In this document: positions 34,283-56,056 of the stretch, one piece after another | Layout: every line of letters begins with the position of its first letter | Position numbering within the stretch: the first letter of the stretch is position 1 | Assembly: GCA_037200845.1 (NCBI GenBank) | Contig: JBBCGQ010000001.1 | Span: 2,368,237 to 2,432,236, forward strand | Source of the DNA: Bauldia sp. | GTDB taxonomy: Bacteria > Pseudomonadota > Alphaproteobacteria > Rhizobiales > Kaistiaceae | DNA: 64,000 nucleotides | Direction: 5' to 3' | Notes under the pieces: model-generated | Told to the model about the DNA's origin: nothing | Seen by the model: only the letters and a program-made list of their open reading frames with translations | Database searches by the model: none | Translations under genes and position numbers: made by a program

Positions 34283-36817
34283 TTACCGCCCCAGCGTCTC
34301 CTTCACCGCGACGGCAAGCTGCTTCAGCGAGAACGGCTTCGGCAGGAAGGAGAATTTCTCGCCGTCCGGCAGGTTCTTGCGGAAGGCATCCTCGGCGTAG
34401 CCCGAGATGAAAATGATCTTGAGGTCGGGCCGGGTCTTGCGCAACTCGCGCAGCATCGACGGGCCGTCGAGTTCCGGCATGACGACGTCCGATACGACGA
34501 GATCGACCGCGCCGCCCGATTCCTTCATCACCTCGAGCGCGTCGATGCCCGACGTTGCCTCGAACACCTTGTAGCCGCGCGACTGCAGCGCGCGGGCGGC
34601 GAAGGCGCGGACGGCTTCCTCGTCCTCGACCAGCAGGATCGTCGCCGTGCCGGTGAGGTCGGCGATCTCGGCATTGGTTTCGACCTGGCCGGCGGTGACT
34701 TCGCCCGCCGCCGGGATGTAGCGCGGCACGAAGATGCGGAAGACCGTGCCCGAGCCGAACACCGAGGTGAAGAAGATGTGCGCCCCGGTCTGCTTGACGA
34801 TGCCGTAGACGGTGGAGAGGCCGAGGCCGGTGCCCTTGCCGACCTCCTTGGTCGAGAAGAACGGCTCGAAGATTTTGGCCTGCACCTCCGGGGACATGCC
34901 GGTGCCGGTGTCCTCGACTTCGATCAGCACGTAGTCCGCCTTGGGCAGCGGCTTGTAGCCGAACTGCTGGCTGTCGGCGGCATCGAGGTTGCGCGTGCGG
35001 ATCGACATCGTGCCGCCGGCGGGCATCGCGTCGCGGCCGTTGACCGCGAGGTTGATCACGACCTGCTCGAACTGATTGAGGTCGAACTTGATCGGCCAGA
35101 GGTCGCGGCCGTGGTTCATCTGCAGCTTGACGTTCTCGCCGAGCAACCGCTCGAGCAGGATCGAGATGTCCGAGAGCGTGTCGCGCAGCAGCAGCACCTG
35201 CGGGCGGAGCGTCTGGCGGCGCGAGAAGGCGAGCAGTTGGCGCACCAGGCCGGCGGCCCGGTTGGCGTTCTGCTTGATGTTCATGATGTCCTGGAAGGAC
35301 GGGTCGCTCGGCCGGTGGTTGGCGAGCAACAGGTCGGAGAAGCCGATGATCGCGGTCAGCACGTTGTTGAAGTCGTGCGCGATGCCGCCGGCAAGCTGGC
35401 CGACCGAATCCATCTTCTGCTGCTGGCGGACCTGGTTTTCCAGCGTCCGCTGCTCGGTGATGTCGATGGCGTTGACGATCACCGCCTCGATGCCGCCCGC
35501 ACCTTCGGCGACCGGGTTGATGTAGAAGCGGACGCTGCGCTCGCGATCGGCCGACAGCGTCGCGTCGATCTGCACGACGCCCTGCCCCTCGGTCGCCGAC
35601 TTCAGCGCATCGGCAAGCTTGGCGCGCTCGGTCTCGCCGACCAGATCGACCAGCCGGCGCGAGCCGCCGCCCATGATCGAGGTGCCGAACAGGCGCAGGA
35701 ACGACGCGTTGGTGCGCCCGATGCCGCCCTTGGCATCGATCGCGGCAATGGCGATCGGCGTGTTGTTGAAGAAGCGCGAGAAGCGCACCTCGGCGGCACG
35801 CAGCGCCTCGGAGCTTTCCTCACCCGGGCTGCGGTTGAGCACCAGCGTCCGCGTCGCGCCCGGCGCGCCGTCGGCGGTGACCGGCACGCGGTGCAGGAGG
35901 CGCACCGGCAAACTCTGGCCGTTCTGCTTGGTGAGATCGAGGTCGATGACGGTCGTGCGGTTGCGCGTCTCTTCCTCTGACGGCGACGACAGCAGCGCGA
36001 TCGCGTCGCCACGCACGATCGAGGCGAGCGTCAGCGAGCCCGGCTCGAAGCGCGTGAGATCGATACCCAGCCACTCGGCGAGCGTCGCATTGAGATAGAC
36101 GATGCGGCCGTCGGGCTCCGCCGACAGGAAGCCGGCGGGCGCGTGGTCGAGATAATCGATTGCGTACTGCAGTTCCTGGAAGACCGATTCCTGCCGCAGG
36201 CGTTCGCTCGAAATGTCGGCGACGCGCCAGGCGATCAGCGGACGCTTGCGGCCGCTGACGGCGAGCGGCCGGCCGGAAATGCGATACCAGCGCGCCCCCT
36301 CGCCGCTTGCGGCGTCGAGCGGCCCCGGCATGCGCACCTCTTCCTCGCCGGTGTCGCCTTCGCGCACGTGCTGCGCGATCCGGTAGATCGCCTCGGTCGC
36401 ATCGGCATTGCCGGAAAACGCCCGCTCGACCGAGTGCACTTCCTTGGCGTCGGTCGCGCCGATCAGTTCGCCGTAGGCGCGGTTGGCGTAGACGAAGCGC
36501 CCGACGAGGTCGGTGAGGATGACGCCCTCGCCCATCGCATCGACGAACGCCTTGCCGACGCTGTCGTCCTGCCCGCGCGCCGTGAAGCGGATGATGCCGA
36601 TGGCGCCGCCGAGCAGCGCCACCACGCCGACCATCGAGAGAATGCCGAGCAGGCCCAGCAGGAACGGCTCGCCGCGATCCGGCTGCAGGAGCATGAGGCC
36701 GATCGAAACGCCGACCAGCGCGAAGGAGAGAACGATCAGCCGACCGACACCACTGATGCGTTCCGTCCGGTCGAGGACCGGCTGAACGGGCGCTGGCGTC
36801 GTTGCGCGATCGGACAT
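34283..36817 (-). CDS. cckA: Cell-cycle hybrid histidine kinase CckA
   Basis: An 844-residue membrane sensor kinase. Two transmembrane helices span 27-44 and 52-76. PAS-type segments lie at about 90-205, 215-330 and 345-455. The HisKA phosphoacceptor is His481 in LAGGIAHDFNNVLTAIIGFS, followed by the ATPase with N593 (NLAVNGRDAM) and the G boxes (DTGTGM, GKGTGLGLS). The receiver starts at about 725 and has Asp777 in VVSDVVMPELDG. CckA drives phosphate through ChpT to CtrA and CpdR, controlling replication, division and motility. The domain order, the LAGGIAHDFNN box and the position near recA and dksA fit rhizobial CckA. Confidence 0.97.
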   Translation of the reverse strand: MSDRATTPAPVQPVLDRTERISGVGRLIVLSFALVGVSIGLMLLQPDRGEPFLLGLLGILSMVGVVALLGGAIGIIRFTARGQDDSVGKAFVDAMGEGVILTDLVGRFVYANRAYGELIGATDAKEVHSVERAFSGNADATEAIYRIAQHVREGDTGEEEVRMPGPLDAASGEGARWYRISGRPLAVSGRKRPLIAWRVADISSERLRQESVFQELQYAIDYLDHAPAGFLSAEPDGRIVYLNATLAEWLGIDLTRFEPGSLTLASIVRGDAIALLSSPSEEETRNRTTVIDLDLTKQNGQSLPVRLLHRVPVTADGAPGATRTLVLNRSPGEESSEALRAAEVRFSRFFNNTPIAIAAIDAKGGIGRTNASFLRLFGTSIMGGGSRRLVDLVGETERAKLADALKSATEGQGVVQIDATLSADRERSVRFYINPVAEGAGGIEAVIVNAIDITEQRTLENQVRQQQKMDSVGQLAGGIAHDFNNVLTAIIGFSDLLLANHRPSDPSFQDIMNIKQNANRAAGLVRQLLAFSRRQTLRPQVLLLRDTLSDISILLERLLGENVKLQMNHGRDLWPIKFDLNQFEQVVINLAVNGRDAMPAGGTMSIRTRNLDAADSQQFGYKPLPKADYVLIEVEDTGTGMSPEVQAKIFEPFFSTKEVGKGTGLGLSTVYGIVKQTGAHIFFTSVFGSGTVFRIFVPRYIPAAGEVTAGQVETNAEIADLTGTATILLVEDEEAVRAFAARALQSRGYKVFEATSGIDALEVMKESGGAVDLVVSDVVMPELDGPSMLRELRKTRPDLKIIFISGYAEDAFRKNLPDGEKFSFLPKPFSLKQLAVAVKETLGR

Positions 36818-48776: not shown

Positions 48777-50277
<1,501 letters not shown>

Positions 50278-50314: not shown

Positions 50315-50632
50315 TCACCGGGATAGGTATGCGGCGATGAACTGGTTGGCGGCGGCGAGCGCGGCTTCCAGATTGGAAAGATTCTGGTCGCCGGCCTCAA
50401 CCGCGGCCGCGGCGGTCGCCACCGCCCCGGCGCCGATAGCGCGGGCCGAGCCGAGGATCAGGTGCGCCGCCTCGCGCCGCTCCGTCCCGGTGGCCCTGGC
50501 GAGGCGGGCAAAGTCGGCCGGGGAGCCCTCCAGGAACATGCGCAGCACGTCGCGGCCGAGCGCCTCGTTGCCGCCCGTCTGGCGCGCCAGATGTGCAAGA
50601 TCGACAGGAGGATGGGCGGTGGTCGCTTCCAT
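50315..50632 (-). CDS. Hpt-domain protein (phosphotransfer-like)
   Basis: A 105-residue all-helical protein with the Hpt core: DLAHLARQTGGNEALGRDVL, MFLEGSPADFARLARATG, then the phospho-accepting His57 in EAAHLILGSARAIGA. The His and the following Gly are kept, but the usual Lys three residues after the His is Leu here. It may act in phosphorelay with CckA-type kinases, or be a decayed one. The ATG at 50632 is preferred over a TTG at 50674, because the CtrA box then has room for a promoter. It is divergent from the GPR-like gene. Confidence 0.8.
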   Translation of the reverse strand: MEATTAHPPVDLAHLARQTGGNEALGRDVLRMFLEGSPADFARLARATGTERREAAHLILGSARAIGAGAVATAAAAVEAGDQNLSNLEAALAAANQFIAAYLSR

Positions 50633-50687
50633 GGGCGCTGGATTAGCCGTTCCGTCAGTGTCTCCGGCCAGCAACGGGCCGGGATTC

Positions 50688-50703
50688 TTAAGATATCGTT
50701 AAC
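50688..50703. promoter_or_regulatory. Perfect CtrA-binding site
   Basis: TTAA-GATATCG-TTAAC is an exact match to the CtrA consensus TTAA-N7-TTAAC. It lies 56 bp upstream of the Hpt gene start and 600 bp upstream of the GPR-like gene. Its position suits cell-cycle control of the Hpt gene directly, and of the GPR gene if its promoter is distal. Confidence 0.75.
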
Positions 50704-51135
50704 GGCAAAAACCTCGGCAATCCCGGGTTGTGCGCGCCTCCGGCCGGTTTGCTGTCGCGGCTAAGTACGGCCTTCCCGGCGTCGATGCTGCAGCGCAGTC
50801 GGACGCTTCGCCGGCCCTCAACGCCCCTCATCCGCCGATTTGCGAGGATTTTCGTCAAAACCGCCGATGTTTCGGACCACGGCGCGCGAGTTTTCCACCG
50901 CCCAGTTCGTAGCCATCACACCCCGCGAGGGGTACCCTTCGGCGTCACTCAAACTGCACGCAACCGCCCGCCGCCATTCGCCAGTTACGCGCGCGCGTTC
51001 GCTTCCGTGTCGAGCCGTCACCGGCATGTTCTTGAACCTGTTTACGGTCTTAGCGGTGAACGCTCGAAGATTCCGGGTTCCTCTGCCATGAATGTGCCAC
51101 TAGGATGATTTAGCGGCATGGGTGGAGGCCACCCG

Positions 51136-51263
51136 GACTGGTCAGTTTTACCAGTCTTTGCGCGGCGTGCGCCGCGGGAGGGGGAAAGTTTGTGCGGAGC
51201 GTCCGCACGCCTCGATCTCGCGACGTTCGCTTGCGCTATTGCCGGGCGTTGATCTGCCCGGCA
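51136..51263 (+). other. Cluster of four hairpins in the GPR leader
   Basis: In 128 bp there are GACTGGT/ACCAGTC (51136-51156), CGCGGC-GTGC-GCCGCG (51161-51176), GTGCGGA-GCG-TCCGCAC (51192-51208) and TGCCGGGC/GCCCGGCA (51240-51263), all with perfect 6-8 bp arms. They lie 41-168 bp ahead of the start codon and could form a structured 5' leader. Confidence 0.55.
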
Positions 51264-51304
51264 GGCCCGATGTGGTTTTGAGTTCGGCGCGAGGCGGATT
51301 GTAA

Positions 51305-54300
51305 ATGGCAACTACCCCGAGAACCAAGAACCCCAACGACGCCGCCCTCTCGGCGGTCGAAGAGGCGCTCAGGCTCGACTATACGCCCGAGGACGGCGCG
51401 CCCGCTCCCGACACAAGTGACGATGGCCGCCGGGATCGCGCGGCCCGCACCAGCGCCAACGAACCCCGCACCACCGCCAGCCAGCGCCGTCCAGAGCAGC
51501 CGCGCGTCCCCGCGCCGCCGCGCCGTGGCGATGCCGCCGCGCCGCAGCCGCCGCGCCCGCGTGACGAGCCGCGCCGCGCCGCGGAGGAACCGCGCCGCGA
51601 TCCGCCGCCGCGCACTTTCGCCGAGGGCCCGAACGAGGCGCCGGCGCCTGTAAACCCGGTCCGCGCCCGCGCCGCCGAGCAGCGCCGCAGCCGCTTCGCC
51701 GCAAACGACGACCGCCGCACGGTCGCCGGCCCGATGCGCCGCCCCTCGCGCCTCATCTATCCGGCCGCGATGGTGCTCTCCGCCGCCTGGGCAATCTTCG
51801 TCGTCGTCTACGCAATGTCGACCGGCGGCCTCACCGGCGAAGGCGGCGACATCGTCACCAATCCGCGCTTCCTCAACGTCGCACTGTTCCTCTTCGTCCC
51901 GATCGGCTTCGTCTGGGCCATCGCCTCGACCATGTGGCGGACGCAGGAACTGCGCTACGTCGCCCGCTCCGTCTCCGACATGGCGATCCGCCTGTCCGAG
52001 CCGGAAAACATGGCGACCGACGCCGTCATCAACGTCAGCCAGGCGGTGCGCCGCGAAGTCGCCGCCGTCGGCGACGGCATCGAGCGCGCGCTCGCCCGCG
52101 CCTCGGAACTGGAACTCCTCGTCCACAACGAAGTCGCGGCGCTGGAACGCTCGTACTCCGACAACGAAACGCGCATGCGCGCGCTCATCGACGACCTCGC
52201 CGGCCAGCGCGAGGCGATCGTCATCAACTCCGAGCGCGTTCGCACCTCGATCGTCTCGGCGCAGGAAGCCCTGTCGAAGGACCTCCGCATCGCGTCGGAA
52301 TCTATTTCCGACAACGTCACCACCGCCGGCAACCGCATCACTGCGGCGCTCACCGACCGCGGCGAACAGATCACCGCCGCGCTCGGCACCGCCGGCGAAG
52401 CGATGGTCGACCAGCTCTCCGCCCGTGGCGAGGACCTCGTCTCGCGCCTGGCCGACACCGTCAGCGACGTCGCCGTCTCGCTCGCGCAGACCGGCGCGGA
52501 AGTCACCGACGCGCTGCTCGCCCGTTCGTCCGAGATCAACGAGACGCTGTCGTCGACCGGCCGCGCCATGGCCGACACGATCAGCGAGCGCGGCCAGGAG
52601 GTGAACGACACCCTCTCCTCCGTCGGCGCCGAACTCATCGCCGGCTTCGAAGGCCGCACCGAGGACATCACGAAATCGATCAGCGAAACCGGCAACATGG
52701 CCGCCGCGACGATTTCCAAGCATGTCACCGAGGTGAACGAGGCGTTGAAGTCGAACGCCGACTCCCTTCTTGTCGACCTCGCGCTCCGCGGCCAGGAAAT
52801 CGCCGACAAGCTCGACGAGACCGGCACGCGCATCGCCGAGACGATCACCAACCGCGGCGGCGAGCTCGCCGACCGCCTGTCGCGCACCGGCGACCGCATC
52901 TTTGAATCGATCGCGGTCAACGGCACCGAACTGAACGAGCGCCTCGCCTCGACCGGCGAAGCCATGGCCAACCTGATCGAGACGCGCACCAACGGCCTGC
53001 GCGAGGCGATCAACTCGGCCACCACCTCGGTCTACGACTCCTTCGACGAGCGCAGCGCCGAGCTGACGCAGCGCCTCGCCTCCGTCGGCGGCGAAGTCGC
53101 CAAGGCGATTGCCGTCCGCGGCATGAAGATCAACGAGACGATCATCGCCTCGGGCAACGAGATCGCCGAGACGGTCGCCTCGCGCGCCGGCGCCATCCAC
53201 GAGCGCATCGTGGACAGCGGCACGCGCATCGCCGACCGCATCATCGACCAGGGCAACACCATCCACGAGCGCATCGTGGAGTCCGGCTCGCAGATCGCCA
53301 ACGAGATCGAGTCGCGCGGCGCCTCCATCCACGAGCGCATCCTGTCGTCGTCGCGCGAGATCGCGGATTCGATCGAAGGCCGCGGCACCGCCATCTACGA
53401 CTCGATCGTCGAGGCGACGCAGCACATCGGCGACGCCATCGAAAGCCGCGGCACGTCGATCCACCAGAAGATCCTCGCCTCCGGCCGCGATGTCGCCAAC
53501 GCCATCGAAAGCCGCGGCGTCACGATCCACGAGAAGATCATCACCTCGGGCACCGAAGTCGCCGATGCCATCGACCAGAAGGGCCAGGCGATCCACGGCA
53601 AGGTCGTCGAAGCCGGTACCAAGTTCGGCGACATCATCCAGCGCCGCAGCCAGGAACTGGGCGACGTGCTGGAGAACCGCTTCGCCAAGATTTCGGAACT
53701 GGTCAGCGAGCGCGGCCCGGAACTGATCACCTCGCTTTCCGAGCAGGCGCACTCGATGGAGACCGCCCTGCAGAGCAAGCTGTCGCAGTTCGGCGACGGC
53801 ATCCGCCTCAAGATCGAGGACGTCTCCGAGGCGCTGGAATCGAACGCCCACCGCATCGCCGAGGCGCTCGACCACCGCTCGCGCCAGATCAACCAGACGC
53901 TCATCGAGCGCACCCGCGAGATCGCCGAGACGTTCACCTCGGGCCAGACCGAGTTCGCGGCGCTCATCGACGATCGCCTGATCGAGGTCGGCGGCAGCCT
54001 GACCTCGCGCATCGAGACGCTCGCCGAGACGCTGACCGAGCGCGCCAACTCGATCACCGACTCGCTTGCCGCGCGCAGCGAAGACGTGGCCCTCACCATC
54101 CGTGAGACCGTCACCGACGTCACGCAGCGCCTGACCAACGAATCGAACGAGGCGACCCGCTCGATCCGCTCGTCGGCCGCCGAAGCCTCGACCATCCTCG
54201 GCCGCGCCATCAACGAGATCGAGGGCATGTTCGGCGCCCGCGCCAACGCGGTCACCGAGGCGCTGGAAGTGCGCACCCGCGACTTCAACGAGGTGCTCGG

Positions 54301-56056
54301 CGCGCGCTCCGGCGAGCTGGCCGCGCTGCTGGACGGCCGCTCCAACGCGCTGCTCTACACGCTCAACAATACCGGCGCGCAGGTCGTCGAGATGGTGGCG
54401 ACGCGCAGCGAGGAAGCCGCGCGCACGCTCATGGCGAGCGGCCAGCAGGTCGCCAACACCTTCGTGTCGACCAACAACACGCTGAAGACCGAAGTTGCCG
54501 ACATCTCGACCCGACTCAAGCAGTCGAACGACGTGCTGAACGCGCTGCTCGGCTCGACCTCCGACAACCTCGCCAAGATCGAGACGCAGCTCGCCACCCG
54601 CTCGACCGAGTTCAAGGCCGCCATCGGCCACGCGGTCGAGGCGACACAGCTTTCCACCAACGAGCTCGGCGGCCAGGTCGGCAAGCTCCGCGACGTCTCG
54701 CGCGAGATCATCGAGGGCGTCGGCAGCGTCGTGAAGCGGTTCGAGGAGCAGAGCACCTCTCTCGGCGCCGCGACCCGCAACCTCGCCGACGTCAACCGCC
54801 AGATCCAGACCACCGTCGAGGAGCGCCGCCCGCAGCTCGAGCAGCTCACCGCCGGCCTCAAGTCGCGCAGCGAGGAACTCGACGGCCTGATGAAGTCGTT
54901 CACCCGCATCATCGCCGAGACGCTGAAGACCGCCGAGGAGCGCGCCACCGCCGTCAGCCGCATGCTGACGGAGAACACGGCGACCGCCACCAAGGGCGTC
55001 ATCGACAACTTCGAGACGATGAACCGCACCGCCGGCACCGAAAGCCGCAAGGCCGCGGACGCGGTGCGCGAGTCGAACAAGGCCATGATCACCGACATGG
55101 GCCAGGCGATGACCGAGCTGTCGCGCCGCTTCGCCGAAGCCTCGCGCGAGATGCGCCAGGCGACGCAGGACCTGCAGCGAGACCTGTCGGTCACCCGCGA
55201 GGAACTGCGCCGCGGCGTGCTCGAACTGCCCGAGGAGGCCCGCGAGGGTGCCGAGGCCATGCGCCGCGTCGTCGGCGACCAGATCAAGGCGCTCAGCGAG
55301 CTGTCCGAGATCATCAATCGGCACGGCAAGAATTTCGACCTGTCGAGCCCGGCGCTGGGCGAGCCGCGCATCCGCCTCGAGGCGACCGCGGTCGCCGTAG
55401 AGCCGGTGCAACTGGCGCCGACCGTCGCCGAGCCGGCCGCGGCGCGCTACACCGCCGAACCCCGCCGCGGCGGCGGCAACGGCAATGGCAACGGTGCCGC
55501 GGCTCCGCAGCCGGTCCCGGTGGCGAAGTCGCCGGCCCGCTCGGTGCCGCGCCAGGCTCCCGCCGCGCTCCGCACGGCTACGGCCAGCGACGAGGCCGGC
55601 GAAGGCTGGGTCTCCGACCTGCTGCGCCGCGCCTCGACCGACGACGAGGCCCCTGCTCCGACAATCGAACGTCCGCAGACCGCCGTGGTCCCGGCCGAAG
55701 CCAACGGCTCCGCCGCGCCGGCGGGCCTCGGCGCCATCTCGGCCGACATCGCCCGCGCCATCGACCACGACGCCGCGGTCGAGCTCTGGGCCCGTCACAG
55801 CAAGGGCGAGAAGAACCTGTTCACCCGCCGGCTCTACACGCTGTCGGGCCAGCAGACCTTCGACGAGATCCGCAAGAAGTATCAGCGCGACGGCGACTTC
55901 CGCGCCGCGGTCGACCGCTACGTCTCGGATTTCGAGAAGCTGCTCGCCGAGGTGACCAAGTCGGGCAAGGACCGCGCCGCCGGCGGCGCGTACCTGACCT
56001 CCGACACGGGCAAGGTCTACACGATGCTCGCCCACGCCTCGGGCCGCTTCGACTAA
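51305..56056 (+). CDS. Giant coiled-coil membrane protein, Growth Pole Ring (GPR/RgsE)-like
   Basis: A 1583-residue protein. Residues 1-145 are disordered and Pro/Arg-rich. Two transmembrane helices lie at about 150-171 and 190-210. A very long amphipathic helical region follows, with the C-terminal domain at about 1480-1583 (AAVELWARHSKGEKNLFTRR, TFDEIRKKYQRDGDF, KVYTMLAHASGRFD). The middle has tandem 22-residue repeats (from about residue 630, of the type SIHERILSSSREIADSIEGR), an apolipoprotein-like 11-mer-based periodicity. The layout and composition match the Agrobacterium GPR and Sinorhizobium RgsE proteins that form a ring at the growing pole, which are longer (over 2000 residues). It is monocistronic with a strong terminator. 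Confidence 0.8.
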   Translation: MATTPRTKNPNDAALSAVEEALRLDYTPEDGAPAPDTSDDGRRDRAARTSANEPRTTASQRRPEQPRVPAPPRRGDAAAPQPPRPRDEPRRAAEEPRRDPPPRTFAEGPNEAPAPVNPVRARAAEQRRSRFAANDDRRTVAGPMRRPSRLIYPAAMVLSAAWAIFVVVYAMSTGGLTGEGGDIVTNPRFLNVALFLFVPIGFVWAIASTMWRTQELRYVARSVSDMAIRLSEPENMATDAVINVSQAVRREVAAVGDGIERALARASELELLVHNEVAALERSYSDNETRMRALIDDLAGQREAIVINSERVRTSIVSAQEALSKDLRIASESISDNVTTAGNRITAALTDRGEQITAALGTAGEAMVDQLSARGEDLVSRLADTVSDVAVSLAQTGAEVTDALLARSSEINETLSSTGRAMADTISERGQEVNDTLSSVGAELIAGFEGRTEDITKSISETGNMAAATISKHVTEVNEALKSNADSLLVDLALRGQEIADKLDETGTRIAETITNRGGELADRLSRTGDRIFESIAVNGTELNERLASTGEAMANLIETRTNGLREAINSATTSVYDSFDERSAELTQRLASVGGEVAKAIAVRGMKINETIIASGNEIAETVASRAGAIHERIVDSGTRIADRIIDQGNTIHERIVESGSQIANEIESRGASIHERILSSSREIADSIEGRGTAIYDSIVEATQHIGDAIESRGTSIHQKILASGRDVANAIESRGVTIHEKIITSGTEVADAIDQKGQAIHGKVVEAGTKFGDIIQRRSQELGDVLENRFAKISELVSERGPELITSLSEQAHSMETALQSKLSQFGDGIRLKIEDVSEALESNAHRIAEALDHRSRQINQTLIERTREIAETFTSGQTEFAALIDDRLIEVGGSLTSRIETLAETLTERANSITDSLAARSEDVALTIRETVTDVTQRLTNESNEATRSIRSSAAEASTILGRAINEIEGMFGARANAVTEALEVRTRDFNEVLGARSGELAALLDGRSNALLYTLNNTGAQVVEMVATRSEEAARTLMASGQQVANTFVSTNNTLKTEVADISTRLKQSNDVLNALLGSTSDNLAKIETQLATRSTEFKAAIGHAVEATQLSTNELGGQVGKLRDVSREIIEGVGSVVKRFEEQSTSLGAATRNLADVNRQIQTTVEERRPQLEQLTAGLKSRSEELDGLMKSFTRIIAETLKTAEERATAVSRMLTENTATATKGVIDNFETMNRTAGTESRKAADAVRESNKAMITDMGQAMTELSRRFAEASREMRQATQDLQRDLSVTREELRRGVLELPEEAREGAEAMRRVVGDQIKALSELSEIINRHGKNFDLSSPALGEPRIRLEATAVAVEPVQLAPTVAEPAAARYTAEPRRGGGNGNGNGAAAPQPVPVAKSPARSVPRQAPAALRTATASDEAGEGWVSDLLRRASTDDEAPAPTIERPQTAVVPAEANGSAAPAGLGAISADIARAIDHDAAVELWARHSKGEKNLFTRRLYTLSGQQTFDEIRKKYQRDGDFRAAVDRYVSDFEKLLAEVTKSGKDRAAGGAYLTSDTGKVYTMLAHASGRFD

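Follow-up and report, generated by a model that had tools for sequence, protein, structure and literature searches.

A conserved, probably functional CtrA box upstream of a ShpA-like histidine phosphotransferase gene in Bauldia and its relatives

CtrA is a master regulator of the cell cycle in bacteria. In the window (the whole stretch of Bauldia sp. DNA analysed here, 64,000 nucleotides long), an exact full CtrA site lies upstream of hpt, which encodes a stand-alone histidine phosphotransferase (Hpt), and this site recurs upstream of the orthologous gene in relatives. We consider it probable that this site works as a CtrA box in the hpt promoter, and that the Hpt most likely acts in a phosphorelay leading from a ShkA-like hybrid kinase to a TacA-like response regulator. 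The site itself is of a known kind; its target broadens a relay type that has already been described.

The sequence TTAA-GATATCG-TTAAC occupies positions 50688-50703 exactly (TTAAGATATCGTTAAC; plus-strand context C-TTAAGATATCGTTAAC-G, with positions 50687-50704 reading CTTAAGATATCGTTAACG), and is the sole exact TTAA-N7-TTAA in the 64 kb scanned, where a mean of 0.01 per window is expected from dinucleotide-preserving shuffles. The sequence-only reading had proposed a full CtrA site at this place, and both the exact TTAA-N7-TTAAC consensus and its spacing bear that out. The conserved unit is a 17-mer (50687..50703, minus strand, delimited by exact match and family conservation), one base longer than the 16-mer first reported; on the hpt strand it reads GTTAAC GATATC TTAAG. 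The box is intergenic, with the hpt ATG 54 bp downstream of it and, in the other direction, the start of the divergently oriented open reading frame for a large GPR-like protein 601 bp away; with the alternative hpt start, a TTG at 50674, it lies 12 bp upstream. By reading of the sequence, the part of the hpt 5′ region that separates the box from the ATG (50633..50686, minus strand) contains GCTAATC, a weak -10-like string that is a candidate promoter element only, and inspection by eye of the sequence downstream of the box across the family, for a sigma-70 promoter in which the box would occupy -35, gave no consistent result in the window. A GATTC (GANTC, the CcrM-type methylation site) at 50683-50687 abuts the box, and a few relatives (L045, L052) likewise have a GANTC no more than about 20 bp from theirs.

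Conservation of the site ahead of hpt orthologues is seen both within the family and, as an enrichment at one particular gap length, across the order. The sequence-only reading had named lack of conservation, together with lack of CtrA binding, as what would refute it; the first of these, the one open to computation, does not apply. The relatives that bear names are Bauldia and Kaistia species, which places the window in the Kaistiaceae or near that family. (A contig search with the Hpt alone as query returned no relatives, and the initial alignment of the GPR-like protein was too divergent to serve as query.) The 17-mer GTTAA[CG][CG]AT..[CT]TTAAG is present upstream of hpt in 10 of the 11 non-Kaistia family genomes that keep the gene, with a mean information of 1.71 bits per column over the stack of 10, against about 0.4 bits per column in its unalignable flanks (60 bp above, 100 bp below). 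Family genomes with the exact box upstream of hpt belong to six genera, and the named Bauldia loci likewise have the box there. It is absent upstream of hpt in Kaistia (7 hpt-bearing genomes) and in one Bauldia-like genus (locus L048); since these keep hpt without the box, control of hpt by the box is not universal. A full TTAA-N7-TTAA that resembles the promoter box of the Bauldia relatives occurs inside one Kaistia hpt coding sequence (L058, positions 1751-1767).

Across the order, 19 of 77 non-redundant hpt upstream regions contain an exact TTAA-N7-TTAA, compared with 0.47 in shuffles, and at each of the other gap lengths scanned (2 to 13) the same regions yield between 0 and 5 exact TTAA pairs. 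When one mismatch is allowed, the 7-base gap is found in 51 of 77 regions; no other gap exceeds 28, and shuffles give 7.1. Loci from outside the family still contribute 10 exact and 42 one-mismatch occurrences at gap 7 (0.64 and 6.8, respectively, in shuffles); TTAA pairs upstream of hpt are thus enriched order-wide at the 7-base gap only.

The hpt gene (50315..50632, minus strand) encodes a 105-amino-acid single-domain protein that scores 27.4 bits against Pfam Hpt (cut-off 24.6), with the phospho-acceptor His57 and Gly61 invariant in an alignment of 32 sequences. AlphaFold predicts a confident four-helix bundle (pLDDT 95), for which Foldseek returns 2OOC, titled ‘Histidine Phosphotransferase ShpA from Caulobacter crescentus’, as the best fold match; the same entry is the best PDB profile match (E 3.8e-13) and the sole match in a single-sequence PDB search (E 1.5e-6). 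When ShpA was used as the query against this genome, hpt was the sole significant match (E 9e-7; the next at 0.18). Judged by sequence and predicted structure, the protein is ShpA-like: what had been described as a divergent Hpt-like protein does carry an Hpt domain above the cut-off, and can be named more specifically as the genome's closest match to Caulobacter ShpA. The lysine of the HxxKG motif, kept in 2OOC and in most Hpts of the order, is missing here (HLILG) and is also lost in the Bauldia-type Hpts; in yeast Ypd1, the residue at this position contacts the receiver (PMC6341664).

Two Hpt domains in the genome exceed the PF01627 cut-off, one in a CheA-type protein and the other in the stand-alone hpt product, and about ten hybrid kinases are indicated by adjacent HATPase and receiver matches. 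ShkA-ShpA-TacA is the stalk and G1/S relay of Caulobacter. There, the three proteins form one relay and tacA is a direct CtrA target (PMC7010744). A candidate counterpart of the kinase is encoded at G000:C1:373731-376007 (L147:832-3108), and its residues 254-756 match 6QRJ, which is Caulobacter ShkA (PMC8534201), at E 1e-93 across DHp-CA-Rec1-Rec2 (pseudo-receiver, receiver). The residues aligned with ShkA R324 and Y338, the c-di-GMP site, are kept (with a numbering offset of 12 deduced from the construct), and the protein has an extra N-terminal membrane/PAS part. The DDR motif between REC1 and REC2 is missing, TPA being aligned there, and we therefore name the kinase ‘ShkA-like’ only.

The candidate terminal regulator is an NtrC-type sigma-54 response regulator of 505 amino acids (G000:C1:2835707-2837221; L153:1008-2522), with the Pfam architecture receiver, sigma-54 AAA and Fis HTH. 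An exact CtrA box lies at -70 of its gene; in the upstream regions of its orthologues, exact gap-7 sites occur in 3 of 28 and none at other gaps, and with one mismatch allowed gap 7 is found in 15 of 28, other gaps reaching at most 9. We infer its TacA identity from the CtrA box, from its co-variation with the other two genes, and from ruling out the neighbouring NtrC- and NtrX-like genes, themselves named by eye.

This co-variation was examined in 28 family genomes. Both hpt and the ShkA-like gene are present in 15 of these, neither in 9, and 4 are discordant (Fisher P 2.7e-4, a statistic that, like those for divergence below, ignores shared ancestry). The discordant genomes comprise G012, a fragmented draft, G007 and G021, which have hpt with an intact histidine and no detectable ShkA-like gene, and G015, where hpt codes for arginine in place of the phospho-acceptor histidine and the search turned up no ShkA-like gene, though the box at this locus (L052) is exact. 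In 5 genomes that lack both, identity to the window genome's copy is 52-59% for the TacA-like protein and 63-68% for CckA, while 13 genomes that retain both have a TacA-like protein conserved at least as well as CckA (Mann-Whitney P 0.0015; P 0.019 in Kaistia alone). Thus, as far as gene content tells, loss of hpt and loss of the ShkA-like gene tend to go together, and divergence of the TacA-like protein tends to accompany them.

The pathway that would act on the box is encoded in the genome. The CckA kinase, noted earlier as lying in the same window, is confirmed there as an equivalog (cckA, the hybrid kinase feeding CtrA; 34283..36817, minus strand; NCBIfam NF046020, 1249.7 bits against a cut-off of 1000), and elsewhere in the genome are encoded CtrA (equivalog, 430 bits, cut-off 350) and ChpT (PF10090). 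In the mechanism we propose, the CckA-ChpT relay would make CtrA~P, which would bind the hpt box and presumably activate hpt, rendering its transcription cell-cycle dependent. The Hpt would most likely pass phosphoryl groups from the receiver domain of the ShkA-like kinase to the TacA-like regulator, whose gene CtrA~P may also activate via its own exact box. CtrA would in this way govern the supply of the Hpt and the TacA-like regulator, two members of a second phosphorelay, and the ShkA-like to Hpt to TacA-like relay would become ready for use during the phase of the cycle in which CtrA is active.

An unlikely but serious alternative is that CtrA controls hpt, and that the Hpt serves one or more other hybrid kinases, or a branch leading off the CckA network, instead of a relay of the ShkA-TacA type. 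A sole stand-alone Hpt above the cut-off beside about ten hybrid kinases would suit such a role, as would the two family genomes that keep hpt without a detectable ShkA-like gene; however, hpt is both the best and the only match to ShpA in the genome, and the genomes that have lost it along with the ShkA-like gene also carry a diverged TacA-like protein, which argues for the ShkA-like to TacA-like relay.

The intergenic region that holds the box is shared by two divergent genes. The GPR-like gene (51305..56056, plus strand; growth pole ring / RgsE type) encodes a protein of 1583 amino acids with Pfam apolipoprotein repeats (PF01442 at 8.7e-43), and a 2Fe-2S ferredoxin gene (49921..50241, minus strand; Pfam Fer2) is, by synteny, the conserved neighbour downstream of hpt; the order fdx-hpt-GPR is kept in nearly all examined loci of the order. 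Like GPR of Agrobacterium and RgsE of Sinorhizobium, this is a large apolipoprotein-repeat protein, encoded next to hpt in a conserved order, although it is shorter than GPR and RgsE (2115 and 2089 amino acids; PMC8262873, PMC7327166).

Among non-redundant loci, 37 have hpt and GPR separated by 300 bp or more; exact gap-7 boxes occur within the hpt-proximal 150 bp in 10 of these (other gaps at most 2), and within the GPR-proximal 150 bp in 2 (other gaps 0 to 1); with one mismatch allowed, the GPR-proximal count is 4 of 37 at gap 7, versus 1 to 3 at other gaps. Because the enrichment is hpt-proximal, with none GPR-proximal, hpt is the likely target of the box. Distances in the 44 loci with a site point the same way, with a median of 105 bp to the hpt start (interquartile 89-129) and 220 bp to the GPR start (interquartile 155-341).

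That the box might instead control the GPR-like gene, alone or together with hpt, and so tie polar growth to CtrA, seems quite improbable to us. Such control is compatible with an intergenic region common to both genes, and with the Beijerinckiaceae-type loci, where the hpt-GPR intergenic region is short, with sites at 84-103 bp from the GPR start. However, family boxes lie 317-630 bp from the GPR start and usually 12-126 bp from the hpt start, the gap-7 enrichment adjoins hpt and not GPR, and the Kaistia near-matches adjoining GPR (CTTAAAGAATGGTGAAT), seemingly one-mismatch boxes, proved to be the GPR start codon and first codons. The link from the box to the polar-growth scaffold that the sequence-only reading had entertained is therefore not borne out, and its suggestion of direct CtrA control over the GPR gene, which the comparative data do not support, is corrected here. 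With no sign that the box belongs to it, the GPR-like gene may be functionally linked to hpt, control by the box being probably not the form of that link; any effect of the relay on polar growth is putative.

Two further features of this region were recorded. In Beijerinckiaceae-type loci (L084, L095, L108, L109, L122, L123, L125, L128 and L136), two CtrA-like sites about 72 bp apart, at conserved spacing, lie between hpt and GPR. In the window, a GC-rich inverted repeat (TGCCGGGCGTTGATCTGCCCGGCA, 51243-51268) lies just upstream of the GPR-like gene, and an Rfam search of the hpt-GPR intergenic region, the repeat included, gave no matches.

The arrangement can be set beside two known systems. 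It agrees with the CtrA regulon of Caulobacter and Rhizobiales in its full site of exact consensus and spacing, its intergenic position, the encoded CtrA, CckA and ChpT, and a site at rcdA, and differs in that the target is a stand-alone Hpt. With ShkA-ShpA-TacA of Caulobacter crescentus (PMC7010744) it shares a stand-alone ShpA-like Hpt, a ShkA-like hybrid kinase in which a pseudo-receiver precedes the true receiver, and an NtrC-type sigma-54 regulator with a CtrA box. In contrast to that system, hpt here bears its own CtrA box, the kinase has its extra N-terminal part and lacks DDR, and the Hpt lacks the HxxKG lysine; the TacA-like regulator is a candidate orthologue of Caulobacter TacA. In the open-access literature we found no report of a CtrA box on a stand-alone Hpt or on a Rhizobiales hpt locus, and no described link between CtrA, ShpA and Rhizobiales, the sole match concerning Caulobacterales; the main text of the Sinorhizobium meliloti CtrA paper mentions neither an Hpt nor SMc00190 (PMC4433202).

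If the proposed relay is correct, the phosphotransferase and the terminal regulator of a relay in Rhizobiales would both be under CtrA, and three genes can be named for it (hpt, the ShkA-like gene and the TacA-like gene). A conserved box on a ShpA-like gene next to GPR, whose ShkA-like and TacA-like partners are lost or diverge along with it, predicts a second cell-cycle relay of the Caulobacter type in polarly growing rhizobial relatives. More tentatively, and with considerable doubt on our part, polarly growing Rhizobiales might keep a complete CtrA-timed relay of the ShkA-ShpA-TacA type that acts in development of the new pole or growth pole; a role in pole development would, if true, explain why hpt stands beside GPR throughout the order.

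Genome-wide (3.15 Mb), TTAA-N7-TTAAC gives 18 strand matches, corresponding to 14 distinct sites, while a reversed-pattern control in the same genome gives 2; because of this excess, selection probably acts on most of the exact sites. Extended to the longer form CTTAA-N7-TTAAC, the pattern gives 5 matches, and 0 in the control. That the hpt box is a functionless chance match is very hard to credit: one TTAA-N7-TTAA does turn up in 1% of window shuffles, and about 2 genome matches are expected from the reversed-pattern control, but conservation of the 17-mer amid unalignable flanks, and the gap-specific enrichment upstream of orthologues, already contradict it.

One site of the longer form, CTTAAGAAATGGTTAAC, lies upstream of rcdA (DUF1465, NCBIfam equivalog), whose S. 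meliloti promoter is bound by CtrA in ChIP-seq, its expression being unaltered upon CtrA depletion (PMC4433202). Two exact boxes 33 bp apart (L033; G000:C1:1358118 and 1358151) lie upstream of a gene for a predicted protein of 89 amino acids with no Pfam or NCBIfam matches. Further exact boxes are located between dnaG and rpoD (L036, G000:C1:2575851), upstream of an outer-membrane beta-barrel gene (L038, G000:C1:2780503), and upstream of a polysaccharide flippase gene (L042, G000:C1:3025547).
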